From the NCBI GenBank assembly GCA_019915135.1, contig JAHLMK010000016.1, positions 248,001-312,000 of the forward strand: DNA of 64,000 nt. Reading direction: 5' to 3'. The stretch's first letter is position 1. Every line of letters begins with the position of its first letter. Under the pieces are notes generated by a model that searched no databases, was not told where the DNA came from, and was given only the letters and a program-made list of their open reading frames with translations. Below, piece by piece: positions 15,268 to 44,821 of this stretch. The stretch comes from Strobilurus pachycystidiatus. Its lineage: Eukaryota; Basidiomycota; Agaricomycetes; Agaricales; Physalacriaceae. The position numbers and the translations under genes are program-made.

Positions 15268-16941
15268 CTACATTCTGTACGTGTTCATATCTGGAGTTGG
15301 ACATTGCTCATCATAGTACGAAGGCTCCGGCATCATGGCTGAAAATGACTGGAAGTCACTGGGACCGATGTGCGGTTGATACAACATCGTCCCGTCTCCG
15401 TAACGCCGCTGCGTCTGCTCGTGATAGGCTCCAGTATTGTGGTGTGGTTGATATAGATCGAATGTACGCTGCTCAAACATCGCGTCCGACTCCCAGCCAA
15501 ACATCGCGTCCATTGGAAGCGGACTCTGTGGCGAGTATTGATATTGACTTTCCCAGTGCTGATAGTGATGGTGGTGTGGAATCCTCCCGAATCGTGACTC
15601 GATTGGGGATGGAGCTTCTCCGTACTGTGCATTCTCCGAGTATTGCGGCTCTAGCTGGTAGGAGTTCCTCCCACTCTGCGGATGTCCTGGGTGGTGAGCT
15701 TGCCCAAATCCCTGCATCTCTACTGATCTCTCCCAATGCTGCGAATGATGATTGTCGGGCGGCTGGTATAATCCGGGATGTAGGTGCATCGGATAATATT
15801 CGGCGTAGTCTCCATAATTGGCCTGTGTTTGGTCGTACAGTGGTGAGCTCCTCTCGGGAGGATACGATGTTCCCGAATGCTGAGCTCCTTCCTGCACATA
15901 GTAGTCTCCGTAGTTCTCACTGCCGTTGGCAGCGTCATCGTTGTTGACGACCTCTGGTTTGGATGACTCTTCTATTTTTTCACTGTGTGCATTGACGTAT
16001 GCACTAACAGCGTCCGCTTCACATGGATCACGTAGTGAGCTGTTCTATGCTTTTTCTGAGTTTATGGTTGGAAAAGGCGAGAGACGGAGCACATACTCCG
16101 CTATATGATGATGGCGCAACAGCTGACACCCGCCATCGTCTTGCCCTTGCTCTCTTACGAGCAATGTGAATCTAAAATAGCATTAGCAGAGATCGTGGCG
16201 CCTGTTAAGGCTACTCACACCATGCGCCTCTTCGAGGGCCTTCAGAGTCTCCTCGGCCTTCCCCAGATTTTTAGCGCAACGCTGCATAAACTTCCTAAGC
16301 TTCTTATCGCTTTGTCGCATGAGCACTTTGTAGCTTGGTACGGTAAGACGGTAGTTTGTGTTTCCGTTGGACTCCCATAGACTGACAGGTCCATCATGCG
16401 TCTGCAGAGGAATAGCTACAGCGCGTGCTATGGACCTGCCGGGAACGTACCACTGAGGGATGACGTCAAGGCCAGGAGGGTCCTGATATGAGCAACTCTC
16501 TGCGGAGGTAGTATTGCTGATGACGGGGAAAACAAACTCGCTCAGGATATCTGGAAGTACATCTTCGCCCTCAAATGTACCCAAAGGGAATATCCAGGAC
16601 CCATGTGAAGGGCCCTTATAGAAGTCGGGCGCCTCGCACAGGATGCCTGGACGAGCATTCTTTCCCCAGACAGCATCTGTAATGTTATTGGCCTTTTCAC
16701 GGGCCTTTTCCCGAAGATCGGAGATGTGTGATATGGTTTCAAGTGAGAAGACAGATCCTGAGTCTTCGAGACGCTTTTTGTGAGACTCCAGCCCCCAGCA
16801 TAGCGCCTCGTAGTATGGCAGAATGAGAGATGCGTTCACGGCATAAATTGTGCCGTAGAGAGGAGATTGTCCGGGCGTCTTATCAATGCCAGGGTGCCTT
16901 GCCTGTTCGGATGACTCTCGGCTTAGAGATGGATCGTCCAT
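15268..16941 (-). CDS. Orphan family X, copy D, with long Tyr/His/Gln-rich tail
   Basis: Exons 16941-16219, 16171-16097 and 16044-15268 (introns 47 and 52 bp, all phase 0) give 524 residues. The first 240 form the family core shared with copies E and F: G.IYAVNASLILPYY, then RPGILCEAPDFY, WIFPLGTF, QWYVPGRSIARAVAIPLQ, LWESNGNTNY and ALEEAHG at the exon end. Exon 2 is basic (ARKRARARRWR), like a nuclear localisation signal. Exon 3 encodes a disordered tail of about 258 residues rich in Tyr, His, Gln and Pro. No signal peptide or membrane segment. The gene is divergent from Y copy G with 567 bp between the start codons. The reading of exon 3 was settled by its match with copy E (AAC start of the exon in both). 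Function unknown. Confidence 0.82.
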
Positions 16942-17508
16942 GATGAAGAGAGGGCGTGACAGTGCGAAGAGGCAAGAGAATACGGGGAAGTAGTGTGCTT
17001 GGAAACCCACCTCAACGCGCCGACTCTGCCTATTTGTAGCACAATTGCTGTGGCGGAGTAGGAAGCTCTTGTTCTTCTCTCAGGTTGAACAGTGTCGCAA
17101 CAGTTCCCAAGGGTACAATGGGATGCACTGCACTGCTGTTAACACAATAGCGTGAGTTGAATCAACGTGAACATTGATGTATTGACTGTCAGCCAGCATG
17201 GCAACGTTGCAATTCGGGACGTGGTCGTAGTGAACGAATACTACTACCTTTAGGTATGCTGGGTATGCTAGAAGAGTCGGTCCCCAGTGGGCGCGCCACC
17301 CTGTGTGTTGTTATTATTCCGTCAGGTTCTTGACAGGTTCTCAATACGCAGCGAACCTGCCGCATCATGATGGGGTTCACACTCGATTATGCAGCGGGTA
17401 GTAGCGTTCCCACGCATTGTTCCCTTTTTGTACACTTCATCAGCAACCATCAACCATACCGTTCTTCACAGATGTTCTAGCACTTTGTGGCTCGTCTCCG
17501 TACAAGTC
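16942..17508. promoter_or_regulatory. Shared divergent promoter of X-D and Y-G
   Basis: 567 bp between two start codons pointing away from each other. The size is close to the two other X/Y intergenic regions (615 and 570 bp). No TATA box is obvious. Confidence 0.55.
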
Positions 17509-19166
17509 ATGTCTGGCCCTGTCGAGGATGCATTCGTCCCACAGTTCGAGGAATACTTCATCTTACAGATCGACCCCGTTGCGACCTTGGGAGGACTCGA
17601 CGACCCGATTGTTAGAAAAGAGTGCGAGGTTTTGAATTGTAAAAAGTATGTGGCATTGACTACGAAGGTAAGTGATCGATGCTCTTTCACTCTGTGCTTG
17701 ACAAAAGGAGCTTCACAGTGGTTGGGAGGCTTGCCCGTGCCTGACAGCCAGGTCTGCTTCGGTGTACTGTTTGTCGGCCGTGGCACGCCCACTTCAGCAC
17801 CGGAATGCATCAGGCCCGAGATGTATGTCCCGCTGTACCCAAATGATACACCCCACCCCTTTGGACGCGCTCCGGTACATACGAGGCCCCCGCTTCCCTG
17901 GAAGACCTGCTATCATCCAACGCGTGCGAGAGCTGCCGTCCGCATGACCGTCAAGGCATTTGACGATCGAGACGAAGGTAGATATGTACTGGCATCGGCG
18001 AGCGACTGGGACAAACTAGAGGACGGGAGGTTGTACGACAAGGAGTGGCAGCAAACCCTACTTGCAGCCGAAAAGGAGAGAGGAATTGGAGCCCAACTGG
18101 ACTCCGCTTTGTCCGAAGGTCAGGTGCAAACTTTGCCGTCGAGGGATGCGGCCACTGGTCCTAGGGTGAACGACATGTTGCATGGACAAGGTACTGATGT
18201 ACGGCAAGACGTGCACAAAGAGGTTGAGTCGCCTGTAGGTGACGATACAGAGGTGGATACTGGAGAACGGTACATGGAATGGATTACTGAAAGCCCTGTT
18301 GTCAATGTCTTCTTTGACCTTGAATCGGTTTCGGAGCAGGACTTTTGCAATCCCTGGGAATTTTGGGAGGAGCTGGATCAACTGAAAAGGTACGCTGTCC
18401 AAAGTGCTGCAGTTGCACGAACAAGGGCTGACAAATATCAAAGGATTGAGCATGAGGCCAAGGACAGAATCAAAATCCAAATCGAGAGGGTGAAAAGGGA
18501 AGATGAGCAGCGCTACGCAGCGCTCACTGCCTTACGAGCGGCGCCAGAGGGACACGAGAAGACGGAGGCCACTTTGAGCTCCGAACTAGTAGGCTCGGAG
18601 TCGCAGCACATGCACAATACACCCACAGATCGGATGGCGGCCAAGAAAGCGGTCGAACCACCCTTAGCGGGCATGACATCCCGAAACAATGAAAACCTCA
18701 GTAAGCATCTCACTTCTCACTTTCGCTCCGCGGAAACATATCCCACATCCTTGCAGGTGTTCAGGACATTGCGAAAGATAAACACGCTGACACGAAAAGA
18801 GGTGAATGCACCGCTGCTTCGACATGCAATCCTGCTTAACTTGTTATAGAGCATGGTTTTACGATGGAAAGCTTCAAAAATGCCTTGGTACTGTTTGGAA
18901 AACGCGTCAGAACAGCCTATTATATGGCCAAATTTCCACACCGACCCTCTGCGCACGCTCATTTAGCGCGGTCGCGATCATCTGCCGAGACTGATGGTGA
19001 GCCTGACCAAAATAGTCATTGTAACGTCCGTAACTCTCGACCTGTCAGCACCCAAAAAGCGTCGAGTACTTACCAGGATTGGGTGCGACTTTCAGGAATG
19101 GTACAATCGAGTGCATATCATTCCCTGTCATCCAAGTCACTGAGTCATCCTGATCATCGCGAATGA
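17509..19166 (+). CDS. Orphan family Y, copy G
   Basis: Exons 17509-17667, 17719-18389, 18444-18700, 18757-18801 and 18850-19166 give 482 residues. Intron phases 0, 2 and 1 for the first three introns are shared with copies H, I and J. Family marks: EYFILQIDPVATL and KKYVALTTK in exon 1; exon 2 starts at a Trp and holds CFGVLFVGRG, RPPLPWKTCYHPTRARAAV, then PVVNVFFDLES and NPWEFWEELDQLKR at its end. A charged, probably coiled region (DRIKIQIERVKREDEQR) and a basic C-terminal part (FGKRVRTAYYMAKF) follow. An in-frame ATG at 17389 would add 40 residues but has no match in the paralogues. No membrane segment. Function unknown. Confidence 0.82.
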
Positions 19167-19370
19167 CTGTTGTTCGGCGAGGCGCCGAGCGGGGCAAGTG
19201 CTGCCTGTGCTATATCAGCGTGCTTGATTTTCAGACTAGGTGCTACTAACGCCGGCCAGCCGTTGCAAATTGTGAAGAGAGTGTATATACAGAGGAATGT
19301 TATTTATACTTTGTCAGAAAGGTCTGTAGGAGATCCTGCCGGAAGAACTCATCATCTCCTCCTTGTGCAT

Positions 19371-20620: not shown

Positions 20621-21901
20621 GGTTATTGAGGACTAACTGAGAGAGTGGGCCCATGTTTTATGTGCAGGCACTTGATTGTCATCGTCGTTCTAAACTTACA
20701 GCCTTTGTGATCTGAGTGGAGAATCACAGTGGCGTTCGAAACAAATCTTCCAATACATAGCCATAGGGCGTCGACTCGTGTTTTTCGACAAGAAAATAGC
20801 TGATGTGATAGGTCATTACAGCATTGTCAGTTAGGACAGATGGGGGGTCATCCTAACGAACGCTCAAAGTCATCGAGCAGTGAACCGAGAGCAAAGACGC
20901 ATCTTCGACAACGCCGCACGAGACCGGCTTTCGATGTCTGCCATTGACGTGCCCGGCAGTCCGAGAGGGAAAGCGGCTATATACAAAGGCTGAAATAGAG
21001 CATATCATGGCGCCATTGATTGTGTCACATAGGTATCAACTCATGGATCGCATATTGGGCGGCGCCGCGGCGGTGTACAACTTGCGCATCTGTATTCAAT
21101 AGGGGTATCAGTAGTTCCACCAGTGGTGATCACAGCAGTCTATCTTTGGGTGAGTGCCAAAATTAGTGTAAATCAGGAAGAAACAGGGCACATTACGCTC
21201 GTTGACATGGGGGGAGGATGAGCGGTTCAAACTTCCCCTCGATCGTCCAATTCGAACTCCGGCCTGCCGACGGCACGGCTTATCAAAACGGCCCGGGCCT
21301 GAGAAAACAGACAGCAAAACGCTGAGTCTCTTGTTCGCCACAAAAATCTCGCCGAACGTGGGCCAACTGAGCGTGACGAAGGCCGCTTCTTTGGCCCGTA
21401 GATACTCTGAAAGTATCTCTGCGACGACGACGACAACGGGCAACAACCACCAATACGGTGACGGTGGACTGTTTGATACAAACACACTTCGCCACATATT
21501 TCACGGAGCTGTGGCTTCTGGATCACCGGGGCACTATTGAGCTCATCTCGATAAACAATTATTCTCAAAATATGGCAACAGAGGGCTCGCTCATGGTGGT
21601 GTGTTGATCATTGTATGTACCAGGTGTGTACCCAATGGGTCGCGATCAAGACCAGAAACACAAGTACAGGGCCACATCTTACGGCAGCGGGATGGCCCTA
21701 CAATTGCTTTGTTGTGCCTTATATGATGCGACGGTTTTGTGTGTCAACAACTGAGCAGTAAGTTGTAGCATGTCTCGGAGGTACCATTACAGTAGAGGTA
21801 TATCAGTCGCAGGGGAATCATACGACTTCCACACACGGCCGTTCTTCAATTGGACCTTGTGCCGTTTCTACCTACCTACCGTAATCCGGCCTTTGCAATC
21901 A
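20621..21901. other. Intergenic 1.3 kb without a supported gene
   Basis: Overlapping ORFs on both strands at 21108-21568 (up to 129 codons) have no splice partners and no paralogue in the window. The region lies downstream of the dead reductase. Confidence 0.4.
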
Positions 21902-23262
21902 TCAATGCCCAAAGACCGGCTGCACTCGATACGGCTCCTCAAGATATTTCATCTCCTCTTCCGTCAGCTCGATATGCGTGGCGGCTAAGTGACACAATCA
22001 GCACGATGCAAGTATATAGAGGCATCAATGTACTCACCAATGAGCTCCTTCAAGTTCTCGATGGACGACGTGCCGACGATGGGCGCAGACACGCCTGGTC
22101 TGTTCAACACCCAAGCCAGGGAGAGCTGCGCCATCGTTACACCCCTCTTCCCCGCAACCTCTTCCCCGCGGTTGACGATATCCTCTCTGCCGGCTTGGGA
22201 CTTGTAGCCCTCTTGCACCCTTACACGATCGAGGTGACAACGGGAGGGTGGGAGAAAGTAGACTTCAACGTACGCTTTGTGCTCTCTCCCAGAGGACGGG
22301 TGAGGATCTCGCGTGCGAGCGGAGAACAGGGGATGGAGGCGACACCAAAGTGCTACAAGGAGTCTCAGTATCCTCTCCCGGTAAACAAGACTGTAATGGT
22401 TCTGCATCGAGATGAACGGCGTGACTCGGAGAGTGTGCGTGATCGCGACGTCAGGATCATTGGGCAGCGCTCAAAGACTCCGACGTACTCTGCATCATGT
22501 GAACTGTGCGACATGTCAATTTGAAGGTGAGGAAACAAGAGGTGTGGGGAGAACGCATAGCAGGAAGACGTGCCGATGTAGCGCACTGGACGACGTCGTG
22601 CAGCGCCTGCATCCTTTCCGAGATGGGCGTGTCAAGGTCGAAACGATGTACGAGTGAGGAAAGATGGACGTCAAGCAACTTACACTGCAGCACGTCAATG
22701 TAGTCGGTTGAGACTGTCGAAGATGCGCTAGAGAATCTTCAGCGAATGATCAGCCAGCTGTGAGGGAGCGACTGAGCCCGTTTTGGTGGGCGTAGCCCTT
22801 GCCATCCAGATTCGCCCGGCCTACTGAGTGAGTAGTGGGATTCCGAGATGTTGTGCTCAGAGCTAAGAAAGATAGATTCGAGGTTGGGTACCTCAACGAT
22901 TCCTTCTCTCGGGATGTCGTAGTACTCCGAGTCATTGATAGCGCGCCCAAGAAGCTTCTCGGATACACCGTTGGAGTACATGTTAGATGTGTCGAACGCG
23001 TTGATCCCTGAGTCGTAGCTAATGCAATTTGAGGTCGAGAGAGAGTGGAAGATGGAAAGAACTGATGCGGCCTTGACGTGCTTGACTGCTCGTCGCCCTC
23101 GATCACCCAGTCGGCCCAGGCTGTATCTCCCAGAGACATGCATCCGAAAATGAGCTTGGAGACTTTCAGCCCCGAGTTCCCGAGGCGCACTAGACGTTAA
23201 CTGGTGTCAGCACGCAATGAAAGGAAGGAGTATGACTGGCCATTTTCGATCTTATCAGCCAT
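21902..23262 (-). pseudogene. Aldo/keto reductase copy 1, inactivated
   Basis: Aligned by eye to the intact copies 2-4, it keeps the promoter (TATAAAAG on the minus strand at 23305-23298), the ATG at 23262 and most exons, ending at TGA 21904-21902. Lesions: the first intron begins GCCAGT; one G is missing near 23088, shifting the frame in exon 2 (GACGAGCAGTC instead of GACGAGGCAGTC); 9 bp are missing at the end of exon 3, removing Val-Met-Thr and changing the catalytic Lys codon to Glu; exon 4 runs into TGA near its end; and about 10 bp are missing in the AGWVRYIG exon. It sits next to an NST1 fragment in the same order as the intact unit. It cannot encode an active reductase. Confidence 0.85.
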
Positions 23263-23491: not shown

Positions 23492-23504
23492 AAACTGCTT
23501 CGAG

Positions 23505-23966
23505 GTCCGGGTGGTGGAAGATAGCTGTGTGGTAGAGGCGTCCGCTGAACTTGGGGCGGGATGGAGTAGAGGGGCGGGGCCTGACGCTGCTTCTGTTGCT
23601 GCTGGTGAGGTACCGAAGGTGTCGGCGGCGCGGGGGTGTGCGCCTGCATTGGAGCGGGCGGTCACGGTGGGCCGGTCTGCTTGGGGGTCTACTCCGCCTC
23701 TCGAGGCGCTCCTTCTCCGCCTTCTCCCTCCGCCCCCTCTCCTCCCTCCGCTCCCTCTCCAGCTTCTCCAACATCTCCCGCTCGTGGCGTTCCCGCTCCT
23801 CCCTTTTCTCCTCCTTTTCTGTTGCGCTCCTCCTCTTCGCGCTTCTTCCTCTTCCCCTCCTCGCGCTTCACACGCTCTTCCTCGGCGGCCTTTTTGATGG
23901 CTCCCGGAGTATGCGCGCTCCTCCTTGCGTTTACGCTTGGCCTTGGCTTCAGTGACTGCATGCTTC
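23505..23966 (-). pseudogene. NST1 fragment 1
   Basis: The minus strand resembles the intact NST1 gene from about 32165 to 32775: AAGGCCGCCGAGGA, GTGAAGCGCGAGGAGG and AATGCAGGCGCACACCCCCG, then CCCCTCTACTCCATCCCGCC. The centre of the Glu/Arg-rich part is shortened and the frame shifts more than once. Both ends of the gene are absent. The long GC-rich ORFs on both strands here are by-products of the repeat composition. Confidence 0.75.
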
Positions 23967-24416: not shown

Positions 24417-25928
24417 TCAACGCCTGTCGCTTCCAGAAGATGATTGACGTGCCAATATGAATGTGTGTGGCGGTTGATGGCGAGGAAACTTGACGTCGTG
24501 ATAAATGTTTCTGATGCGGCAAGCGGCCGCCTTTATAATGCCTTTGACCGTCCGTTTCCCACTCGGGTTGGCTGTCCTGAGGGAGGGTGTAGGCGACTGT
24601 AAACAAATACTTGCCTGCTTCGACTGCCCTCTCATCATCCGGCTTATGCATTGGACCACTCGAATGTGACCTGGCTTGGAATGTAAGTCAGAATCAGCTG
24701 TATATGTGTCAGACAAGCTGCGGTGCCAGTGGAAGCTAGTGATACGCACATTCGTCTGCAGGAGAGCAAACATCCAGGGGTGAGCTGTCCTCAATTGGGT
24801 GGGCCCGGTGGTTGTCGTCAGTCAGGTCAATGGCGGAATCTTCGTGGATCATGACATCCTGAGCCGCGACTATCTCGCTTGCTAATTCATCGGCTTTTGT
24901 TCCATGCGTATATTTGTCTGCATCTTTCGATCTTCCTTCTGCGGGAGAGTCCTGTGTTCGGACTACAGGCGACGTCACGGTGTAGTGTTCCTCGTCCTTT
25001 CTTCTTACTCGCTCAATCTCAGCCTTCACCCGATCTCTCACACCCTTTTCGATTCTTGAGCATCATGAGTCTATGATTGGTCTCGCAGAGGGTATGTGCG
25101 TACCGTTTGAGTTGCTTCTTTTCCTCCCAGAAGTCCCACGGGCTGCTGAAATCTTCCTCCCCAAAGGCTTCCAGGTCGAAGGATACCTTCACTGCCGGAT
25201 TGTCATACACCCAATCGAGAAACTCTTCTTCCAGGTTAGAGTACGCCGAGTCCGTATCACGGACCATAGGAGGATTTTTGTCGCGCGGCAGCCTTTCCTC
25301 GCAAGAGACCACACTTTGTAAGGTGCTCCCTTGCTTCTCCATCTCCTCCTCCTGCTGATCCTGTAAGTATTCCTGCCAGCCGGTATCGTATTCAGTTGCC
25401 TTCCGTAGCTTCAGGGAGCTCTGTGTTCCTGCAACAACATATCTGCCCACTTCACGAAGGTCTGTCTTGGGAACCTCCATCCACACAGCAGCGCGGGCAA
25501 GGGTTGGGTGGTAGCAATTCTTCCAGGGCAAAGGGGGCCTGGTATCCATTGGGATGCGCTGCAAGGGGTGCGAGGCATTGTTTGGGGAGATAGGAATTGT
25601 CATCTCCGGTTGGACACAAAATGGGCCCGGAGGCGGAATTCCATGGCACACAAAGAGGACACCAAAACAGCAAACGTCTCCCTCGAAGGGGGCACCTCCC
25701 ATCCACTGAAAAAAGACATCGTTCTAGGTAACGCTTTGAACAGGTAGTGGCTTATTGACTCACGTCGGTAACGACAGCGACGTATCTCTTGCATCGCATG
25801 CTCTCGCAGGCCTTGGTCGCGACTGGATCGTTCAGCTTCTGTAATGTGGCCACTGGGTCGATCTGAAGGATGAAATACTCGTGAAACTGTGGCACGGCTG
25901 GCTCGTCGGAAGTAGTTGGGGTGGACAT
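24417..25928 (-). CDS. Orphan family Y, copy H
   Basis: Exons 25928-25764, 25705-25104, 25054-24750 and 24697-24417 give 450 residues. Introns are 58, 49 and 52 bp with phases 0, 2 and 1, as in the other Y genes. Exon 1 holds PQFHEYFILQIDPVATL and CKRYVAVVTD; of 43 residues compared with copy I, 30 are identical. Exon 2 starts with Trp and has CFGVLFVCHG, RPPLPWKNCYHPTLARAAV, NPAVKVSFDLEAF and SPWDFWEEKKQLKR. The C-terminal part is basic (KGIIKAAACRIRNIYHDVKF), like the end of copy G. The middle (about residues 140-200) differs from the other copies. Divergent from X-E with 615 bp between starts. Function unknown. Confidence 0.82.
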
Positions 25929-26543
25929 TTCAAGTGATGCTGAGCCACAAAGCCTGCATCGTATAAATCGAATCCGTGCGAGAGAAGTTAACCTGAACCC
26001 TGCAAATGCCGTCATCGTGCTCTGAAGCGGCAACTCGTAGTACAAGAAGACTCCCAATGAGAACAAGGCGTGAGAGTGACGGGCTGTCACCGGGCCCAAT
26101 AAGTAGTGCTGCAAACACCGCATGTTACGACGTTGCTTTGATGCTACAGAATTAAGAACAATGGCGGAACTCAGGAACCTTCCTGCATGTCAGACAAACA
26201 ATTACGATGACCGGAATGGGCAGAGACGTGTAAAATTGTCACTATGCTGGCTGACGGTGGTCATGGAAATCGAGACGACGTATATCTCAGGCTCTTGTTC
26301 TGCATAGGACTATCGACCTGAATGCCGTGTTTCTCTGGTTATTGTTCGTCGAACGCCTTGTTCAGTGGTCAGAATTGTCTGGGAGAGGAAGAGTTTGTAC
26401 TAGAATCTCCCTCTGGCAGAACCGAGATGAATAAATACATACAGAAGAAAAGGTGCCTTGAAGCTATTCTTCTTCCCCATCTCGTCGCCGCCCCGGTCGC
26501 CAAACTATCATCCCCACTCGTCCACCCATCACATCCACTGGCC
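25929..26543. promoter_or_regulatory. Shared divergent promoter of Y-H and X-E
   Basis: 615 bp between start codons. An in-frame ATG upstream of X-E at 26427 is judged to be in the leader because the paralogues do not have the extension. Confidence 0.55.
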
Positions 26544-28237
26544 ATGCAAGGTCCCCCCTCATATCAGCGCAATCGTGGCCACTCAAATGCGCAGCACTAC
26601 GCTGAGCGGGTTACTACCGGAGAGTTAGAATTCGGCGTGATATACGCCGTCAACGCATCCCTTGTGATGCCATACTACAACACACTTCGCCGGGGACTCG
26701 ATACACACGAGGTCTGCCTCGAAAATGGTGCAGTCATGACAAAGGACGCCAGGCATGAAATAGCCTCGCTTCATAGTCGTGCCAGCAATAATTCCCAAAG
26801 GGTCATGAATGCCACCTGGGGCAGGAAGATCCGGCCAGGTATTCTCTGCGAGCCGCCGACATTTCTCGGTGTAGTCAAGAATGGTCGGCCATGGATATAC
26901 CCTCTGGGAACCTTCCAGGGTCAGCATGAGCTCGCTGCAGAGCTGAAAGAGTTCGTCATCCGCATTGTCAGTAACAACACCTGTGTAACAGACGCCGCTC
27001 CCATCTGTCTTGAGACTGAACCTAGATGGTATGTCCCTGGGAGCTCGATAGCTCGCGCCGTGGCTATCCCACTGCAGGCATACAATACCCCAGAGTCCCT
27101 GTGGTACTCCAATGAAACCGCGAGATACAAGTTAAGCGACGATAGTTACCAGTTGTTGCTCGACGAGAGTAAGAGTAGACTGCGAAGTTTCCAAATCGAA
27201 TGCCGCACCGACATGACCAAGCTGTCAAAGCTTCTCGATGCTCTCGAAGACGCGCATGGGGTCAGTAATCATCGACACTATCCATTTCTATACTTATCTC
27301 TTTTATGGCCAGGTCAATATTGAGAGAAGTGGGACGTTGCCAACCGTTCAGCCACAGCTGCAAGGCGGGGTCGCAAGATCCATTAGAACAATGGTGAGTC
27401 CGGGTGGTCTGATGAGTTGAGGAATAGCATCTAACATAGACGCGGTAGAACACCAGACCGAGACACGCACCGTACGAGACCTCGAGAAGTCGTCCCTCGT
27501 CGTATTACTCGGTCGATGGTCGCTCACGCCGCCAAGAACGCCGAGACGCCGAGATGAACGTCGATGTTAGTTCAATTCAGTTACGAGGTCGTCGATGAAA
27601 ACTGACCAATTTACAGGTGCCATATCGATATGGCAGCGGCGACAGAGGGAGAGCTGAGCCGGAATTAGCTCGTGATCCAGTTCACGGGGATTTTGCTTTG
27701 CATTATCCAGCGATTACGAACCCGGGATTGTATGAAGGGCATTCCAGATTTCCTGCTTACCCCAGCGATAGCGAGATGCACGTCGATCATCGCCAGCCAG
27801 GGACGTATCCCAACCCCTCAAACCGCCACAGCTACATGCCAGTGGACGCACCCCGCAGGAGAAGGGCCGATAACAGCGGGGAACCATATGGCCAACAAAA
27901 GCATTACCTCCGCGACCAGACTCTGCCAGTTCAAGGAGGCAATGTGTTCTACTGTCCCGAGACTATAAATCCGCAGCTGCATCGAGGAAATTACCCCTAC
28001 TCGGACAGCGAGATGTCTGACCAACGACAGTCAATTGATTATTCAAGCCATTACCATCAGCCAGAGGCGCGATCTGGGTACGGCCATAACATTGAACGAC
28101 TGTATCGAGGGAATTACCCTTACTCGAACAGTGAGATGTCTGACCAACGCCAGTCAGCTGATTATTCCACCCAATACCACCAGCCAGAGGTGCGTCATGG
28201 GCACGGCTATGACACTAGACAATGGACAGCACGGTGA
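26544..28237 (+). CDS. Orphan family X, copy E, with repeat-containing tail
   Basis: Exons 26544-27260, 27313-27393, 27449-27565 and 27617-28237 give 511 residues; all introns (52, 55, 51 bp) are phase 0. The core matches copies D and F: IYAVNASLVMPYY, RPGILCEPPTF, WIYPLGTF, RWYVPGSSIARAVAIPLQ, LWYSNETARYKL and ALEDAHG at the exon end. Exon 3 is Arg/Ser/Tyr-rich (GRSRRQERRDAEMNVD). The tail is rich in Tyr, His, Gln, Arg and Ser and contains a 41-residue unit twice in a row (27983-28105 and 28106-28228; NYPYS.SEMSDQRQS core). No signal peptide or membrane segment. Divergent partner is Y-H; downstream lies reductase copy 2. Function unknown. Confidence 0.85.
27983..28228 (+). repeat. Tandem 123-bp (41-codon) coding repeat in X-E
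   Basis: Two head-to-tail units starting CGAGG(A/G)AATTACCC at 27983 and 28106. Both keep the frame and differ at scattered bases. Confidence 0.75.
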
Positions 28238-28410
28238 GGCGCAGGAAGCCATCTGGAAGTGTTCGTCAATAACCATTGTCGCTTGTGTTGATATGGGCTA
28301 GTGATATCATAACTTAGCGTAGTGAACCATAATTCTGATAACGTCGAGTACAATAGCACAGTAATTCATATGAACGAACGGACCAGAAAATGTGTCGCTG
28401 GAAACTGACT

Positions 28411-30015
28411 TCAATAATGCCCGTTGATTGCCTGGGGGCGGTACGGTTCCTCGAGATATCGCATCTCCTCCTCCGTCAGCTTGATATGCGTCGCCGCTAC
28501 CATCACAATCAGCACCATGATCTCAACGGTGGGAGGGAGTGCTCACCAATGAGCTCCCTCAGATTCTCAATAGACGACGTCCCTACGATAGGCGCTGACA
28601 CGCCTGGTCGGTTGCACACCCACGCCAACGCGAGTTGCGCCATCGTTATACCCCTCCTACCCGCGACCTCCTCCACGCGGTTAACAACGTCCTCCGTCCC
28701 GACCTGAGATCTGTAGCCTTCTTGCATCCTGAGTCATAGTACATAGAAGGTGAGAACGGGAGGTGGCAGGAGGTGGACGTGTGGACGTACAGATCACTGG
28801 CGCCGCGCTTTGTCTGTTCGCGCAAAGGGCGGGTGAGCATGCCGCGTGCGAGCGGGGACCAAGGGATGGACCCTACGCCGAAGTGCTGTAACTGGGGTTA
28901 GGGAAGGCCAGAGAGGGGAAGGCCGGGCAGGACACGTACCTTGAGTGTGGGGAACATCTCCATCTCTTCCTCGCGGTAGATGAGGCTGTAGTGGTTCTGC
29001 ATAGAAATGAACGGGGTGAGGTTGTGCGTTATGGCGTGGTCTAGTAGGCATGGTCAACCCGTGAAGGCACCGAACGGAGTAGGGAGCATACTTTGCATTA
29101 TGTGGACTGCAATTCGGGAGATGTGAGACGATGGCCCGGGTGAAGTATTCGGCACGTACACTGATATGCGTAGCAGGAGGACATGCCAATGTAGCGTACC
29201 CATCCAGCTTGGACGACATCGTGGAGGGCTTGCATCGTCTCGGAGATGGGCGTGTCTGGGTCAAAGCGGTGGCCTGCAAACATGAGTGCATGAAACAAAG
29301 AAAAAGAAAGACAGACAGAACGTACATTGAAGCACGTCGATGTAGTCCAGCTGGAGACGCTCGAGGCTATCTTTGACAGACGCAAAGATGTGCTGTGAGA
29401 GGCAAATTCAGCGACCGAAGTGCAGATTCGCTATCAGAAGATAATGAGTGGACGCACCTTCCGACTCAAGCCGTGCTGATTAGTATATCCCTTTTGGTCC
29501 AGATCTTTTACGTTCACGCTAAAGAGTTTATCTGCAACGTCGGTGGACACTGCACCCCAGAGCTGTGGACATGTACATATCAGCACAGACAGGCGGAAGG
29601 CCAGAATGTACAACGTACCTTGGTCAGGACAACAATTCCCTCCCTGGGAAGATTGTACTCCTTGATGGCGCGCCCGACGATCTTCTCAGATACGCCGTTG
29701 GAATAGACATCCGCTGTGTCGAACGTGTTTATTCCTGCATCGTATCTGCTGGCGGTTCGAGACTGAGGTCTAGACCACAAGAGAGGTCGGAGCTTACGCG
29801 GCCTTGACGTGCTGGACTGCAGCGTCGCCCTCAAGCACCCAGTCATACCAGGACGTGTCGCCCAAGGACATGCAGCCCATGATTATCTTGGAGACCTTGA
29901 GCCCCGATGTACCCAAACGGACTGTAAGTGCATATTAGCGTCCATCGCACGCTCGGTGAATTGGGAGGAGCGTACCGTATTGAATCTTCTGGTCGACGAT
30001 CATATGGTCAGACAT
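28411..30015 (-). CDS. Aldo/keto reductase, copy 2
   Basis: Eleven exons (30015-29976, 29921-29798, 29745-29619, 29562-29458, 29392-29326, 29273-29160, 29106-29092, 29040-28940, 28885-28791, 28728-28547, 28496-28411) give 351 residues; all eleven exon lengths after the first equal or nearly equal those of copies 3 and 4. NAD(P)H-dependent reductase of the AKR fold, in the group of versiconal-acetate-reductase and aryl-alcohol-dehydrogenase-like fungal enzymes. Visible marks: [11 protein letters not shown] at the start, [18 protein letters not shown] with the catalytic Asp and Tyr, VVLTK with the Lys, [10 protein letters not shown] with the His, and [15 protein letters not shown] near the NADPH site. 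TATATATA (minus) lies at 30065-30058. Head-to-head with NST1 (440 bp apart). Substrate unknown. Confidence 0.9.
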
Positions 30016-33907: not shown

Positions 33908-33943
33908 GAAGGTAGCCCCAACCCTCAAGCTCAACCAACATTC

Positions 33944-35473
33944 ATGGCTGACAAGATAGAATATGGCGAGTCGTAGTACACCTCCCTTCCATTGCGTGCT
34001 GACACCGACGTCCAGTGCGCCTCGGGAACTCGGGGCTGAAGGTGTCCAAGCTCATCTTCGGATGTATGTCTCTGGGAGATACGGCGTGGGCTGATTGGGT
34101 GATCGAGGGCGACGAGGCAGTCAAGCACGTCAAGGCCGCGTCAGTTCTCCCCAATATCCATTTTCTCGACCTTACAATGCATCAGTTACGATGCAGGGAT
34201 CAACGCGTTTGACACAGCCAACATGTACTCCAACGGTGTATCTGAGAAACTTCTTGGGCGCGCTATCAAGGAGTACGATATCCCGAGGGAGGGAATTGTT
34301 GTCATGACCAAGGTACCCAACCTCTAATCCAGAATCACATTGTCTTTTCTTACCTTTGCGTAGCTCTGGGCACCTGTTTCTACCAACCTCTCGGAATCAC
34401 TATATAAAATTGGCTTTCCGGCGCTGGATGCCAAGGGCTACGCCAACCAATACGGGCTCAGTCGCAAGGTTTGCGTTCCCTGCGTCCCTCATAACCGATC
34501 ATTCGCTGAAGATTCTCTAGCACATCTTTGCCTCTGTGAAGGACAGTCTCGAACGTCTCCAGCTCGACTACATTGATGTGCTGCAATGTACGTTTCCTGA
34601 CGTTTATTTTCCCTCACTAATACACGTCTCGCTAGGCCATCGGTTCGACCCTAACACGCCCATCGAGGAAACAATGCAAGCCCTCCACGACGTCGTCAAG
34701 GCCGGCTGGGTGCGCTACATCGGCATGTCTTCTTGCTATGCGTATCAATGTAGGCTCTCTCCGCACCTGTTGTTTCCTTCATTTGACACGCCGCACAGTC
34801 CACATGATGCAGAGTAGGTCCAAGTCCTTCAGCGCTGCCCAATGATGATAACGGCGCAGATTACGCGATCACGCACAACCTCACGCCGTTCATCTCGATG
34901 CAGAACCATTACAGTCTCGTTTACCGGGAGGAGGAACGGGAGATGTTCCCTACTTTGAGCGTGCGTCTTCTCCTGCCTTTCTTGACGATATTGAAACTCG
35001 CTGTAGCACTTCGGTGTCGCCTCCATCCCCTGGTCTCCGCTCGCGCGCGGGATCCTTACCCGTCCTCTGGGAGAGAACACAAAGCGCGGAGTCAGTGATC
35101 CGTACGTTGAAGTCTACTTTCTCCCACCCTCCCCTTCTTACCTCGATCGTGTAAGGTTTCAACAGGGCTACAAATCCCAAGCCGGCAGAGAGGACATCGT
35201 CAACCGCGTGGAGGAGGTTGCAGGGAAGAGGGGTGTGACGATGGCGCAGCTCTCCCTGGCTTGGGTGTTGAACCGCCCAGGCGTATCTGCGCCCATCGTC
35301 GGCACGTCGTCCATCGAAAACTTGAAGGAGCTCATCGGTGAGCACATAACTCTCACTATTTACTTACATCGTGCTGAAGAGGATACTTAGCCGCGACGCA
35401 TATCAAACTGACGGACGAGGAGATGAAATACCTCGATGAGCCGTATCGAGTGCAGCCGGTCTTTGGGCATTGA
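33944..35473 (+). CDS. Aldo/keto reductase, copy 3
   Basis: Exons 33944-33965, 34016-34139, 34186-34312, 34364-34468, 34521-34587, 34636-34749, 34799-34813, 34860-34960, 35007-35101, 35156-35337 and 35391-35473 give 344 residues. Start [33 protein letters not shown] with Asp58 and Tyr63; VVMTK with Lys91; CHRFDP with His150; [31 protein letters not shown] for cofactor binding. All members of the AKR catalytic tetrad are present, so it should be active on an unknown carbonyl substrate. Intron 1 (33966-34015) starts with GC (GCGAGT) where copy 4 has GTGAGT; reading through would hit TAG. Exon 7 is a 15-bp microexon shared by all copies. It lies downstream of NST1 and upstream of a Y relic. Confidence 0.92.
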
Positions 35474-35713
35474 TGAATGCGACGGTTTGGGGTCGTGTAT
35501 ACGTCTACTGTAATGGGACATCTGCTTCTCCTGGGACACGCTCAGCTTACTGTTCTGTTGATACAGAGCGCCCAATCGCCATGTAACGCAAAGCACAACA
35601 AAGCATTTGTATGCGATCCCGATGCTGTCTGATGTGGCCCTGTGTGGTGTCCCTGGTTGCTTCCGTATCAGATTGTGGGCCACCTCGTTCGTACACTTAC
35701 TGAACACCCACCA

Positions 35714-35840
35714 CGAGCGAACTATCTGTTCCCGAATTCTGCGAATACATCTTCTCGAGATGAGCTCAAGAGTGCCTCAGTGATGCAGAAGCTACATCTC
35801 CGTGCAAAGTCACGAAGAGCAGGAAATATGTAGCGAGGTG
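35714..35840 (+). pseudogene. Relic of family Y exon 1
   Basis: Matches the start of copy J at the DNA level: ACGAGCGAAC (ATG changed to ACG), TTCTGCGAATAC, CTTCTCGAGAT, GAAGCTACATCTCCGTGCAAAG, AGGAAATATGTAGCGA. A middle part is missing. Nothing of exon 2 remains. Confidence 0.7.
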
Positions 35841-36483: not shown

Positions 36484-36958
36484 TATCAATGGCGAGGCCG
36501 CAGTCGACGAAAATGATACCACGTTGTAAGGGTGGTCGCCGTACCCAGGACGTCGAAGGACCGTGGCGGAAACCTGATAAGTGATCGGTTTCTGATTAGA
36601 TTAGATTAGTCTTTTTCTTACCGTCTTACCGTCACCGTCGCTGTACGCCCGTCGTTTCTACGAATAGAACGAGGTTATATGCAGCTTTGGGTGATCTGAG
36701 AGGTTGAGGTTTTACACCGAGATCAAGTTGAGGCACGTGGAGAGGAACGCGCTTGGTACTGTTTGGCGACAGCGTCGTATGAACCTCTCTTTATTGTCGA
36801 CATTGTGCCCCGAAAGTTCACAATGATGGCGACTTCACGCCCGAATCCGCGGGTCTTTTTGTTGCCATCATGGATCTCCCTTGTGAGCGAAGAAAACCAT
36901 TTGTGGCTCGCTATCAAAGTCCATTCCTGCTCTCACTTGACACTCGCAACCGCAAATC

Positions 36959-38455
36959 ATGCCCTCGAATGTCGAAGAACCTGCTTTCGTACCCCAGCAC
37001 AATGAATACTTCATTCTGCAGATCGATCCCTTTGCCACGACGGAGGATCTCAATGATCCTGTCGCCACAAATGCATGCAAGGCCTTGAAGTGCAAGCGAT
37101 ACGTTGCTAAGGTGACCAATGTGAGCATGATCCTCTTCTTGAATTTCTCTCTTGAGAGAGCTCACTGTGCTGTAGTGGATGGACGGAATACCAATTGAAA
37201 GTTTTACATGCTGTATCGGAGTGATCATGGTATCAAAGGGGATGTTCCCCGGCCCAAGATGCGTTCAGCCACAGATGACTATCCCAATCTCGCCGAATAC
37301 AAGCCCCCACCCCTTCCGCCGTCTACCCATAGAGACAGAACCCCCTTTGCCTTGGTCAAATTGTTATCATGCGACACTTGCACGAACCACTGTTCGCTTT
37401 GTTGTGGGCGGAGTCGATAGGAGGACAAAAGGGAAATGCATCATGAAGGATGGGGGGGAACAGTTGATGAAGCTATCCCGTGCTACAGACGAGGACAAAC
37501 TATGGCACAAAACTCTCAAGACAGTGATCAATGCATTGAGCCGATCTGCCTCCAGCGCGCCCTCCACTCTGTCTTGCACTCCCGCTTTGGCCCGTTCAGG
37601 CCGAACGGCAGCAGTAGATGATTCCGATCTCGACGAACGCCACCTGGAATGGGTTTCCAGGCAACCATTCGTGAACGTCTCATTCAACCTTGAATCGTTC
37701 CAGGAAGAGGATTTCTGCAATCCGTGGCAGTTCTGGGATGAGTTAGATGAGCTGGAAAGGTATGTGAGATATCATGTTACATCAAAATGGACATTCATAT
37801 TGCGACAGAATTGTATATGAACATAAGGAGAGAGTTAAAGAACAAATCAGAGCTGCTTGCGAACGGGACAACAAAGCCTATACGTCACTCACGCTAGGCC
37901 GCAGCGACTGCCCGGTACAGATACCATCATCAAGCCCGACTGGACTCGAGGCAATAGATGGTTCTTTGTTGTCCGGGAGGTCTTCCCCGACGTATACACA
38001 TCGATCAGATTCAACGATATCAATTGACGGAGAGTCGCTCGACGCCGTCGAGACGCCCTCAACTTCGCGGTGCCAGCATTCCATTGGTCATCGCGCAGAG
38101 CAGGTTCCGTCCTGCGGTAGCGAGAAAAGTCGGAAAGACATGCCCCCGAGACGTGAGTGAACGAACGCCCCAGATGCACAGATACAAGTCTAATATTTGA
38201 GTCAGACCTACACATCGGAAGAAGGATACGAGCCCTCGCGAGTAGACTACAGCACGCAAACAACATTCCGAAGGTACCCGTTCCATCATGGAGAGTCCGC
38301 ACGCGCACATCTCATGAGAATGCATCTAAGAGTGAGTACTTGTATTTCTATGTCTTTTTGAGCGCAATATAATCTGCATACAAGAACCAGAAAAGCCACC
38401 ATTGTCAAGCAGAATAATGAATGTTGGAGACAAATTAGTTGCGCAACTAAGATAG
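36959..38455 (+). CDS. Orphan family Y, copy I
   Basis: Exons 36959-37120, 37176-37759, 37809-38152, 38206-38331 and 38385-38455 give 428 residues. The first three introns have the family phases (0, 2, 1). Marks: EYFILQIDPFATT, CKRYVAKVTN, exon 2 starting with Trp, CCIGVIMVSKGM, EPPLPWSNCYHATLARTTV, PFVNVSFNLESF and NPWQFWDELDELER. Then come a charged helix (HKERVKEQIRAACERDNK), a Ser/Pro-rich stretch and a basic end (GRRIRALASRLQH, and PPLSSRIMNVGDKLVAQLR in the last exon). Exon 4 was placed by choosing the GTCAG acceptor at 38205, since the nearer TTGAG site leads to an early stop. It has no X partner: 1.5 kb upstream is reductase copy 3 with only relics between. Function unknown. Confidence 0.78.
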
Positions 38456-39720: not shown

Positions 39721-41288
39721 ATGGCTGACGGAATTGAATATGGTGAGTCGTGTTTCTCACTCTCATGATGCTTACCCATCTACGTCTAGTACGCCTCGGG
39801 AATTCCGGACTGAAAGTCTCCAAGCTTATATTTGGATGCGGGTCCCTTGGAGATGCAGCATGGGCCGACTGGGTGCTCGAGGGCGACGAGGCGGTCAAGC
39901 ACGTGAAGGCCGCGTCAGTTTTTTTTTCGAAACATCGATCCCCCCGTGCATTTTGTTAAACATTGCACTAGATACGATGTAGGGATCAACGCGTTTGACA
40001 CATCGAATATGTACTCCAACGGCGTATCCGAGAAACTTCTTGGGCGCGCTATCAAGGAGTACAATATACCGAGGGAAGGAATCGTTGTCATGACCAAGGT
40101 AAACCTCGATTCCATTGTCATATTCTCTCTCTTACCTCCGAGTATATGTAGCTCTGGGCACCCATATCTACCACGTCCGTGTCGGAACACCTCTATAGAC
40201 TTGGTGCGCCAGAGTTAGACGGCAAAGGTTACGCTAACCAATACGGGCTCAGTCGCAAGGTTTGGCACTGTGTCGCTCCAATCTGTCATTCATTGAAGAC
40301 TTTGTAGCACATCTTCGCCTCTGTCAAGAGCAGTCTCGAACGTCTTCAGCTCGATTACATTGACGTGCTGCAGTGTAAGTTGCTTGTCGTCCATTCTTCC
40401 TCGCTGACACAGGTCTTTGTAGGCCATCGCTTCGACCCACAGACGCCCATCGCGGAAACGATGCAAGCTCTGCACGAAGTCGTACAGGCCGGCTGGGTGC
40501 GCTACATCGGCATGTCCTCCTGTCATGCGTACCAATGTGCGTTCTTTTCACACCTCTTGTTCCGCTCGACTCATCATGTCACACAGTTCACATAATGCAA
40601 AGTACGTCCGAGTCTTTTGAAAACTGCCCGGCAATTTCGAGGCGAGCTGACGGTGCAGATTACGCCATCACGCACAACCTCACGCCGTTCATCTCGATGC
40701 AGAACCACTACAATCTCGTGTACAGGGAGGAGGAAAGGGAGATGTTTCCAACACTAGACGTAAGTGTCCTGTTCTCCAGTACCTGCTCATACTAACCACA
40801 AACACCTCTGCAATCACAGCACTTCAAAGTTGCCTCGATCCCCTGGTCTCCGCTCGCGCGGGGGATTCTCACTCGCCCTCTGAGCGAACAGACTAAGCGC
40901 GGCGCCTCTGATTTGTAAGTTTGCTTGACAAGCTCTCTGAACTGTTCGGTCACTGAACCCTTCCATCATAGTATGCAAAGAAGCTACAAGTCTCAAGCCG
41001 GCACAGAGGACATCGTCAACCGCGTCGAGGAACTTGCAGGCAAGAGGGGTGTAACGATGGCACAGCTCGCGCTTGCGTGGGTGTGCAGTCAGCCAGGTGT
41101 ATCTGCACCCATCGTCGGGACGTCGTCGATCGAGAACTTGAAGGCGCTCATTGGTGAGTCCTTCCACACTGTGGAGGATAATGGTCTTGATTATGATTGC
41201 AGCTGCAACGCATCTTAAACTGACGGAGGCCGAGATGAAATACCTCGAAGAGCCGTATCGGGCGCAGGCGGTCATTGGGCATTCCTGA
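39721..41288 (+). CDS. Aldo/keto reductase, copy 4
   Basis: Exons 39721-39742, 39790-39913, 39972-40098, 40152-40259, 40308-40374, 40423-40536, 40587-40601, 40659-40759, 40820-40914, 40972-41153 and 41203-41288 give 346 residues. Same enzyme type as copies 2 and 3, with [39 protein letters not shown] and [15 protein letters not shown]; the catalytic tetrad is complete. Differences from copy 3 cluster in the exon-4 loop (ISTTSVSEHLYRLGAPEL), which in this family borders the substrate pocket, so substrates may differ. All introns are GT-AG. It is followed by X copy F on the other strand. Confidence 0.92.
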
Positions 41289-41743
41289 TCGAGTCGGGTT
41301 GTGTATCGTCCTGTATATGTCCCCAAATAACTAGCCTTTTCCGACTCGGGGGCTTCTTCGTCCTACTAGTGCACACAAAGGGCAGCTCGGTGATTATCTC
41401 GTATTTCTTTCTAGTTTTTATTTGTCGGGATGCAACAAGGCTACACAGGACCATCCGTAACTTCGGCAGTTGTGTCGAAGTCCTCGCGGCAGATATTCCT
41501 GTTTCATCTGACGCCGGCGCCGGCTGGTGACCTGAACCAACACTATATGTAGCTGGATGGTAAGATGTACGGTGCAGTAATGCCTTTTTTTCATAATGAC
41601 AAGAAGGAACACGATTAGGAGCGGGGGAAATACGATAGCATGCAGCAACACTAGATAAATGAACAGCACAGAAAAGTGGACTGTGGGAAGAGGCAGAAAA
41701 ATGAGAGGAGAAGGCATAGATGATACGTCCTGCGAGGACCTGG
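41289..41743. other. 3' flank between reductase copy 4 and X-F
   Basis: Convergent 3' regions. A GC-rich palindromic CGGCGCCGGC run lies near 41515. No gene supported. Confidence 0.4.
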
Positions 41744-42921
41744 TTATGTGTTCCGGAACGAAGGACTCATCGGGGTCTTGAGAACCTCGATGATGGTTGC
41801 AAGTTGCGGTGCGTGAACACGCAGATTTCTAGAGCGTGTGAAGACAGCGCTCGCCACCTGGGTGCAGGTCAGTGCGTTTGCCCGCTCTCACGACTCAGTG
41901 GCACAACGTACCTTCTTCAGGCGGGACTCGGACGGCGCGGTGTTCTCTCTGTTTGCAAGACTCTTTTTGAACGGCTTGCTTGGTGACGGTGAAACACTCC
42001 TGTTGTCAACGGCCTACAAGTGTTGACTGAACATGCGTTATTTCGCAACATCGTATAAGTACTTACCGCGTTGTCTGTCCTGGAATCTTCTAGAGGCTTC
42101 TTCACGACAACTCCTTCGGCCGTCTTGATGTATAGCTAGAAGGCCAGTCAGTGATGTTTTGTATATGGGCTTTTCAAGCAGCTCACATCGTCATGACTCT
42201 GCAAAAGTCCCTCCAGGACTTCGCCCACGTAGTCGGGATCAGCCTGTGCCTTGTTAAAGAAGTCGTCCATTTTCAGCATGCTCTGATACAGCAGAGCCTG
42301 GTAGGCCTCGGGTTCAAGTTTGAACATGGGTACACTATCAGTGCTCCAGTATCGCAACGGGCGAGCCTCTGTTGCTAATGGGAGAACGACGACTCGCGCT
42401 TTTTTTGGCGGCGTAACCTGCCAGGGAGGAGAGGTATGAAGCGCTCCGTTCACAGACACCCCGTGGCTTTCAGTGAGAGAGATGGGCATGACAAAGCTCT
42501 CGAGCTTGGGATGAAGTGTCTGATTTCCCGAAAATGTTCCCATAGGAAACACCCAATGCTCGTACTTCCCTGTCTTGTCAAAATAGAATACTGGCGCTTC
42601 GCAGTACACGGCAGGACGTGGAAATCTCTTCTTCTTCACCGCCTGCTCTATGTTTTTGGCAGCAGTATCAGCTCGGGATTCGACGGATGTCAACCTGGAC
42701 ATTGTGTCGGCGTCCCCGCTGTGGATGGAAGTAATCCCGGAGATTGTGGAGAGACACAGCTTGTAGTAAGGAAGGATGAGAGACTCCTTAACCGCATAGA
42801 TTGCGCCATACTCGAGTGGAACTAGGGAATCATCGATCTCGGCGTCGACCGTAGGCTGGCGACGCCTCCGGGATCGCGAGCTGGCGGCGGTGCGTCGTGA
42901 TCTCAATGATGGTGCGGTCAT
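41744..42921 (-). CDS. Orphan family X, copy F, without the long tail
   Basis: Exons 42921-42187, 42135-42067, 42013-41912 and 41857-41744 give 339 residues; introns are 51, 53 and 54 bp, all phase 0 as in copy E. Core: YGAIYAVKESLILPYYKL, RPAVYCEAPVFYF, WVFPMGTF, ARVVVLPLATEARPL, YWSTDSVPMFKL. The N-terminus is Arg-rich (SSRSRRRRQ). Exons 2-4 are short and basic, and the protein stops where copies D and E go on with about 200 residues of Tyr/His/Gln-rich tail. ATGs in frame at 43029 and 43023 would add 36 residues, but the paralogues begin near 42921. Divergent from Y-J with 570 bp between starts. Function unknown. Confidence 0.8.
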
Positions 42922-43491
42922 GGGAAGGTTGTCGTTGTCTGAAGCTGTACGGAGATGATGTGGCTTTTTATGGAAGAACTTATGCAGGGCATGTTGTTCT
43001 CGATAGGTAGAGTTTCTTGTCATAGACATGGAATGGATTCTATAGAGCGTTGATCACCGATCACGTTCTGGACGACGGCGAACTTCCCGATGTATTGTTC
43101 TTGATGACAGGACAAGGTGCGCTGTTGTACCAAATGGGGCCGGCGTCCACTCGCATGGCAACGGGAAAGAACAACAACCTGACAATAATGGCAGACAAGG
43201 CTGAAAATCATGCAATTGTCTCGACTATGTAGTCTCGTTGCCATCCGTTTAGCGGACCCTACCCTAAAAGGGAACCCTTCCGTAAATAACGAGACTAAGT
43301 ATGTGTGTCTCGACATGGAGTGGGGCGGACCTGATTGGCTCGTTGTTGTTTTCGGCTCAGGCCGCTTGATAGATTGATTGCCGCCCCGGATGGCCCTGCA
43401 TGTTATTGTTACTATTAGGCGAATCCCCTTCTTGAGCCGTAGTCTTTTATTGCGAGTGACACCATGTCCATACACCCATCAAGACCCCACC
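42922..43491. promoter_or_regulatory. Shared divergent promoter of X-F and Y-J
   Basis: 570 bp between opposed starts. An exact 10-bp inverted repeat, TAGTCTCGTT at 43230-43239 and AACGAGACTA at 43288-43297, lies near its middle. Confidence 0.55.
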
Positions 43492-44821
43492 ATGAGCGAA
43501 CCCTCTCTTCCCAAGTTCTGCGAATACTTTGTCTTCGAGATAGACCCGGTCGCGTCTCTGCAGCGCCTCAATGATCCGGAAGCTACATCTGCGTGCAAAG
43601 CGATGAAGACCAAGAAATATGTGGCGATGGTGACCAGGGTGCGTTTCTATCGTCTTCCAGTTCGATGTTGAATCAACTTCACATTCAGTGGATGGGTTAC
43701 GTCCCACGCGTTGGCGCTCTTTATCCCATGAGTGTCATACTAGTGTCGCGAGGGATGCATGCTGACCATGACGACAAATGCGTCGAAGCCGACATGAGCA
43801 TACCCATACATCCAAATACTTCCCCTCACCCGCTTGGACGCCAAGCCATTATGACTGATCCGCCACTTCCATGGAGTGACTGCTACCACCCAACACGCGC
43901 CCTCGCTCCAATACAGGTCCTGCACAAACGGATAGATATACGCGACCGTGGTGTTTACTCAGTGTGGCCAAAGGAGGAATTCATGAAATTAAATAAAGTG
44001 ATGCTCGAGGACCGCAAACGTCAAGAGCAGTCACTAGCCGAGCGAGCTGCCGCTGCCGCTGCCGAGGCTGCAGTTGACGAGGACGATGACCAAGTCGAGG
44101 ATGAGGACAACGAGGAGGAGGACTATGACGACGACGACGGCGACGGCAGCTCGATTAGCACGTCGAATACGGAGCAGTCTGACGACGGCATCTGGATGTT
44201 CGAATCTCCTGTGGTCAACGTTTGTTTCGATCTTTCGACGCTGGCCGCGGAGGAACTTTCAAATGCTTGGGAATTTTTTGAGGAGGTCAATGAATTGCAA
44301 CGGTACGCTCTTCTTTCCCTCCTGGAGGACCTTGTTACTGAAAGATATTGTACAGTATAGAAAACCAGCATCGAGAGCGTGTGAAGAAGCGAATCGCGGC
44401 TGTGCAGGAAGCAGACGACGCGTTATACTCTTCCCATTTGGCAACGAAAAATGCTATCAGCATCTCTGTGACAGGGCGTTGTGATGTATCTCCGAGCGAG
44501 CAGGAAGAGGTCCATCTTTCCAAAGATGAAGCCTCACCTGCAGTCGAGTCGCCATCAAAAACTGAAAATCCGAGTCCCAAGGCTCCTGTGGTCACAGACT
44601 CTGGTCATACCACTCCTTCTGCCCGATCTTCGAAGATGTCAGGTCGCCTCACGAAAGGTATGATGAGTCTCATCATGCACCAATCCGTCTAACAGTGAAT
44701 GATAGCATTGTCGCCACAGCATGGGGCCTTGACGTTCCCAAAATCGTTGTTCAGTGCTGTTAAAAGAAAGATTAGTCGTCTCCTCGGACTCCTCACTGAG
44801 AAGAAGACCCGTGTATTGTAG
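43492..44821 (+). CDS. Orphan family Y, copy J, with acidic insert
   Basis: Exons 43492-43638, 43689-44302, 44356-44657 and 44706-44821 give 392 residues; phases 0, 2 and 1 as in the family. Marks: CEYFVFEIDPVASLQRL, KKYVAMVTR, exon 2 from Trp, DPPLPWSDCYHPTRALAPI, SPVVNVCFDLSTL, NAWEFFEEVNELQR. In place of the variable middle it has an Ala run followed by a very acidic stretch (DEDNEEEDYDDDDGDG). The end is basic (FPKSLFSAVKRKISRLLG). Divergent from X-F. A reversed Y relic lies just downstream. Function unknown. Confidence 0.82.

Follow-up and report, generated by a model that had tools for sequence, protein, structure and literature searches.

X and Y, two protein families without names, appear to form one co-inherited two-gene module in the genome of the agaric Strobilurus pachycystidiatus, a conclusion that is well supported by sequence comparison. 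The families were found in a window, meaning here the whole stretch of 64,000 nucleotides that was analyzed (contig JAHLMK010000016.1, positions 248,001 to 312,000; G000:C16:248001-312000), within a genome of 51.8 Mb and 61 contigs. The original prediction for the window had described three divergent X/Y pairs, X-D/Y-G, Y-H/X-E and X-F/Y-J. These were present, with the start codons 567, 615 and 570 bp apart exactly as claimed and in both orientations (X minus/Y plus in X-D/Y-G and X-F/Y-J, Y minus/X plus in Y-H/X-E) (Table 1). The members of a pair are quite probably functional partners. A role of the pair in non-self recognition is a tentative reading, falling a little short of probable.

X and Y recur as a divergent pair across the genome

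The genome was searched with five different X single-protein queries and the best candidates were scored; the X count is a lower bound. At least 18 X places were found on 10 contigs, and at every one of them (18/18) a divergent Y adjoined, heads together. X core and Y exon 1 were 474-1465 bp apart in 17 pairs, and for two pairs on C3, known from search coordinates only, the X-Y gap was ~0.8 kb. A 19th X, partial, lies divergently beside a Y at C6:670.7 kb, and it is not independent evidence, having been found only from its Y by scanning the DNA around it. With 18 X placed at random and ~46 Y in 51.8 Mb, 0.012 divergent Y neighbours within 1.5 kb are expected by chance, and 18 were seen. Because the pairs copy as units, 18/18 does not amount to 18 independent events. 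What is informative is that no break in the link was seen from the side of X, and that the divergence of the partners agrees.

The Y search gave ~46 genes at distinct places, the C31 genes being counted apart from their C4 counterparts, and ~27 of the 46 were without a detected X. A lost X beside unpaired Y genes was sought in 19 loci, and no X match at E < 1e-3 was found in sequence that mostly reached only ~1.3 kb upstream of Y and far less in L056 and L057. C3:262-321 kb holds a cluster of ~15 Y genes, many of which point the same way, and four X partners were detected there.

The original prediction had reserved the case that X and Y are mostly unlinked in other genomes, which would leave their pairing a by-product of segmental duplication. 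Within this genome, the two families were linked at all X places on the 10 contigs. Duplication explains the spread of the pairs, but it does not by itself explain why X is never seen without Y while many Y stand without X. The same asymmetry could be read as that of a poison-antidote pair, a meiotic driver or selfish module in which X would be harmful and Y would neutralise it; 0/18 X places without Y, ~27/~46 Y without a detected X and the absence of X matches in the 19 loci are in line with this. However, asymmetric loss or faster divergence of X yields the same pattern, the toxicity of X is presumed, no match to a known toxin family was obtained, and the ratio of nonsynonymous to synonymous divergence (dN/dS) was ~0.3 for both X and Y in the comparison of C4 with C31 given below. 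We consider a poison-antidote pair decidedly unlikely.

Partners have diverged together

Pairwise protein distances in X and Y were correlated over 17 pairs (r 0.63, with 0/20,000 permutations as high), as they were over 16 pairs (r 0.57; 0/20,000) and 15 pairs (r 0.51; 1/20,000). The reciprocal nearest pairs were the same in X and Y in 7/7 cases, or six if the C4/C31 couple is set aside as alleles, and no partner exchange was seen among them. These results are based on distances and nearest neighbours, not on trees. No reciprocal nearest pair was found for X-F/Y-J, C4_2329 and C27, and the nearest neighbours of X-F/Y-J and of C27 differ between X and Y. In several couples, X diverged faster than the Y core, for example in C6_2145/C10_1474 (X 45% and Y 77% identical).

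The many dispersed copies on 10 contigs would also be compatible with a mobile element whose coding part is the X/Y pair. Against this, no confident transposase or integrase match was obtained for X or Y, one X member giving a chance-level match (E 0.26) to the leucine-zipper region of IS481. Most copies are weakly similar, X genome-wide being mostly 22-43% identical to X-D, and dN/dS was below 0.7 in the compared pairs with finite dS, two couples with saturated or zero dS being left out. A mobile element is highly improbable.

One pair occurs in two diverged versions beside near-identical flanking DNA

The X/Y stretch C31:120645-123808 was 77% identical to its counterpart on C4 (2352/3062 bases), with 78% DNA identity in the X core, 66% in the shared intergenic region and 80% in Y. 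Identity rose to 92.5% in C31:123809-124264 and to 99% in C31:124265-126000 (1719/1736 aligned bases), and it stayed at 99% over the 7 kb of C31:126001-133000 versus C4:2597897-2604896, being back to 98-100% ~0.7 kb past the X core. Protein identity between the two versions was 69% for X over 292 codons (dN 0.215, dS 0.70) and 71% for Y exon 2 over 279 codons (dN 0.187, dS 0.68), compared to a dS of 0.029 in a flanking 198-codon frame, which makes the silent-site divergence of the pair some twenty times that of the frame. Both versions of X and of Y appear to be constrained, because dN/dS is ~0.3. In the simplest account, C31 would be the second haplotype of C4, kept apart in the assembly by its divergence, and the block would be held in two old versions.

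Inside the diverged block, a 1119-residue open frame (L055:3202-6558; C4:2577202-2580558) ends in a CHAT domain (E 6e-33), and the stretch with this frame was 93% identical between C4 and C31. C31:77.9-80.3 kb matched C4 at 93-100% in all comparison windows but the first (87%). On the right side, the syntenic Y at C31:137.6 kb was 87-99% identical until homology ended at ~138.5 kb. A divergent Y/Y couple stands in place of X/Y at C4:2571954-2573901 and C31:79463-81328, on both contigs, and its second Y was 85-89% identical over ~0.6 kb at its start.

The original prediction had suggested a part in self/nonself recognition. The strongly diverged X/Y versions beside 99%-identical flanking DNA speak for it, and they come from one locus whose allelism is presumed and whose divergence is wider than X/Y, so that the evidence is suggestive and the role itself unproven. 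Several observations weigh against it. Diverged versions were compared at this one locus only, and C4 and C31 may instead represent a large recent segmental duplication. The divergence is not limited to X/Y: C31:116001-120395 gave no alignment to C4 (42% when forced), except that inverted matches, 1.15 kb long at 82% and otherwise shorter, surround a small predicted secreted protein in C31:116.0-120.4 kb. Parts of C4:2574001-2584000 are 85-93% identical to C31:81527-88625, with insertions and deletions. The block was compared outside C31:88.6-116.0 kb, and the gene under selection in it may be one other than X or Y. The protein of one Y (C4:2572 kb/C31:79.8 kb) does not differ between the contigs across 114 codons, and the C4 copy of the syntenic Y at C31:137.6 kb looks broken. 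Neither of two tested flanks, window 55000-64000 and C27:108001-114000, had a near-identical full-length second copy, and the assembly is therefore not generally two-copy. No fold or activity was recovered for X and Y, for which the fold models were too weak.

Proposed mechanism and its main competitor

If the pair serves recognition, the X and Y products would act on each other and X would need Y nearby. Matched partners of one haplotype would be compatible, and a mismatch between X/Y versions would be what is sensed when two nuclei or cytoplasms meet. The diverged haplotypes would be kept by balancing selection, and the CHAT-domain (caspase-like) protein in the C4/C31 block might be the executor. 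The pair may be co-regulated from its shared intergenic region. The word GAACAA[TG] was present in 11/16 stretches upstream of paired Y, in 6/17 upstream of unpaired Y and in 17% of 275 control windows. Because the word was selected on these paired sequences, its p-values overstate the enrichment; it is a post hoc lead, and pairs of the window itself are among the control windows.

A different explanation is that X and Y are housekeeping or stress partner proteins with a shared bidirectional promoter, multiplied by ordinary duplication. The divergence between C4 and C31 would then be incidental, whether it arose by old introgression, by a segmental duplication, through less recombination near rearrangements or through hitch-hiking with another gene of the block. 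The duplication of the pairs as units, the post hoc GAACAA[TG] word upstream of paired Y, and a divergence that also spans the CHAT side and the non-alignable DNA would all suit it. By itself, however, it leaves unexplained that X is never alone while lone Y are many, nor does it account for a dS of ~0.7 at the pair with 98-100% identity again ~0.7 kb past X. We regard it as possible but somewhat improbable. The recognition reading in its full form describes a basidiomycete non-self recognition system spread over 17 or more loci away from the mating-type clusters, in which mismatch triggers a response, balancing selection keeps the versions and a CHAT executor is present at one locus; taken with all these parts, it is rather unlikely.

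X and Y protein families

The X core carries the motifs GxIYxVxxSLxLPYY, RPxIxC, WxxPMGTFxG, TxPxW and AWxVxIPL, and within the window the other X cores share 31-43% identity with that of X-D. The computed isoelectric point is 6.0 for the X-D core, 5.0 for the X-D tail open reading frame (ORF) and 8.3 for the X-F core, and the N-terminus of X-F is Arg-rich. In Y, exon 1 of many members has the motif GEYFxxQLDPxAS...KKYVAC, and exon 2 has PEMSxPIxPNTxHPxxRxPLxCDPPLPWPDCYHxTxA, followed by a variable linker and a C-terminal end predicted with high confidence to be a helix. The four Y genes of the window share an exon 1 with EYFxxxIDP...KxYVA, a short intron and an exon 2 starting with W(M/L). 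With introns deduced from paralogues, the phase of the intron at the end of exon 2 was the same in all four.

The original prediction was also right that X and Y are not similar to each other (hhalign profile-profile probability 0.3%) and that neither has a recognisable domain, as no confident match in Pfam, NCBIfam or PDB sequences was obtained. The homeobox model was absent among the Pfam matches of X or Y members, and Pfam recognised no NLR, SNARE, HET, lectin-fold, PII-like or known death or recognition domain in either; het loci commonly, but not always, have a death or recognition domain. A resemblance to PemK/MazF, seen by eye (G-x-I-Y-x-V ... RP-x-I-x-C), had no Pfam support and the fold models were too weak to bear on it. 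PADLOC matches of Y-J to two unrelated models (E ~0.009) were taken as chance.

In single-sequence searches of 5.8 billion proteins, no relative at E ≤ 0.01 was found for X-D (619 candidates), nor for Y-G among the best 8000 candidates. Searching with the X alignment brought up one relative from outside the genome, P0001. It lies on a metagenome contig of 1.5 kb and shares 62% identity with the C27 X across 314 residues. A Y pattern search gave 10 matches in viral contigs and 15 in bacterial or archaeal genomes, none of them a relative. No description of the families was found in the literature searched, which is a weak result since text searches cannot find a sequence.

Relation to mating-type loci and known incompatibility systems

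The HD1/HD2 genes of the basidiomycete A (HD) locus are divergent partner-gene pairs that are multiplied and have strongly diverged haplotypes. The original prediction took them as its model, and X/Y is like them in its divergent, adjacent and multiplied partner pairs (18/18 X places) and in its presumed diverged haplotypes. X/Y differs from them in having no homeodomain match and in occurring at 17 loci or more, outside the mating-type clusters. Homeobox matches form a cluster at C1:6.257-6.268 Mb, as do STE3 matches at C9:1.857-1.881 Mb; both clusters are taken as mating-type loci, and no X/Y was found at either. On C4, a single strong homeobox match at 2.047 Mb is separated from the closest X/Y by ~0.28 Mb.

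Three systems of other fungi were also compared. In Podospora anserina, balancing selection acts on het-B (Bh/Bp), two neighbouring genes whose allelic variants are highly divergent (PMC10890737), and X/Y is likewise a couple of neighbouring genes with strongly diverged versions. In contrast, a HET and a lectin-fold domain are present in Bh, and Bp is PII-like; X/Y matches none of these families in Pfam and is a multi-locus family. In Aspergillus fumigatus, het loci with a narrow divergent footprint resemble C4/C31 in having a divergent gene within otherwise similar flanks, and a predicted CHAT protease is the product of one het allele (PMC11138114). Those loci are mostly single genes with tested incompatibility, whereas X/Y is a pair, with a putative role in incompatibility, in a block of ~44 kb on C31 (~23 kb on C4). 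The Neurospora genes sec-9/plp-1 are nearby partners, like X/Y, and control death on cell fusion (PMC12881547, PMC11138114); they encode an NLR and a SNARE protein, neither of which domains was recognised in X or Y. Within the reach of these tools, the X/Y proteins, their multi-locus pairing and the basidiomycete setting are new, while a paired, allelically diverged locus is already known in fungi.

Gene layout of the window

The coordinates of the X and Y genes are given in Table 1. The splice joins of the X-D tail ORF are putative, and the introns of the window Y genes were placed from paralogues, without transcripts.

Table 1. X and Y genes, shared intergenic regions and possible relics in the window
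Feature	Position	Strand	Basis
X-D tail ORF, 57% S/P/Q/G/N/H/Y, probably disordered	15271..16044	-	open frame; composition
X-D core exon, start codon 16941	16186..16941	-	open frame; X family alignment
X-D/Y-G shared intergenic region, 567 bp	16942..17508	.	
Y-G, start codon 17509; exons 1-3 (17509-17667, 17719-18389, 18444-18698); further exon(s) to ~18849	17509..18698	+	paralogue-inferred introns
Y-H, start codon 25928; exon 1 25928-25764, exon 2 25705-25104, exon 3 from 25054 downwards	25022..25928	-	paralogue-inferred introns
Y-H/X-E shared intergenic region, 615 bp	25929..26543	.	
X-E core exon, start codon 26544	26544..27278	+	
X-E tail ORF; internal direct repeat 27977-28091 / 28100-28214, 83%	27599..28237	+	
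Possible relic of Y exon 1	35770..35835	+	profile match 25.0 bits, fragment only
Y-I, Y gene without detected X; exons 36959-37120, 37176-37759, 37809 onwards	36959..38160	+	no X match nearby
X-F core exon, start codon 42921	42172..42921	-	
X-F/Y-J shared intergenic region, 570 bp	42922..43491	.	
Y-J, start codon 43492; exons 1-3 (43492-43638, 43689-44302, 44356 onwards); later exon(s) to ~44821	43492..44658	+	paralogue-inferred introns
Possible relic of Y exon 1	44910..44972	-	profile match 23.9 bits

Interleaved with the X/Y pairs are four copies of an aldo/keto-reductase gene, which have diverged and lie in both orientations (21890-23200, 28410-29930, 34000-35490 and 39780-41300). The Pfam model Aldo_ket_red matched frame 35007-35387 (E 1.3e-13), and a second frame tested gave no match. 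Because several diverged copies of this gene lie between the X/Y pairs, the region has expanded through local duplication. A large gene that looks like NST1 has an inverted partial copy of its charged-repeat region (23500-23900 / 32224-32785), 73-96% complementary in pieces; no Pfam match was found for frame 32070-33377.

Left of the pairs, two convergent small genes at ~12869-13545 (+) and 13973-14622 (-) have similar starts (PPPYEQ and PPPSYEE) and gave no Pfam match in the frames tested; they are possibly a further orphan family adjoining the X/Y array. To the right, three related small genes (45862-46737, 49401-50373 and 51264-52337) have a run rich in Ser/Thr and probably a transmembrane segment. 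For the first of these, Pfam gave sub-threshold matches to transmembrane and Mid2-like models, and it gave none for 49401-50373. Window 60453-63464 has a second copy, 79% identical, just beyond the window at C16:314352-317304.

Significance

In a 2021 paper (PMC8229728), the mechanisms of somatic incompatibility in basidiomycetes are called completely unknown, and limited genetics points to ~3-5 loci. Being tightly linked, matched in their divergence and present in strongly different versions next to near-identical DNA, X and Y are sequence-defined candidates that may be mapped and tested for such a role. Even if recognition proves to be the wrong reading, two unnamed protein families in a recurrent divergent pair would be a clear and testable case of an unknown two-protein system.

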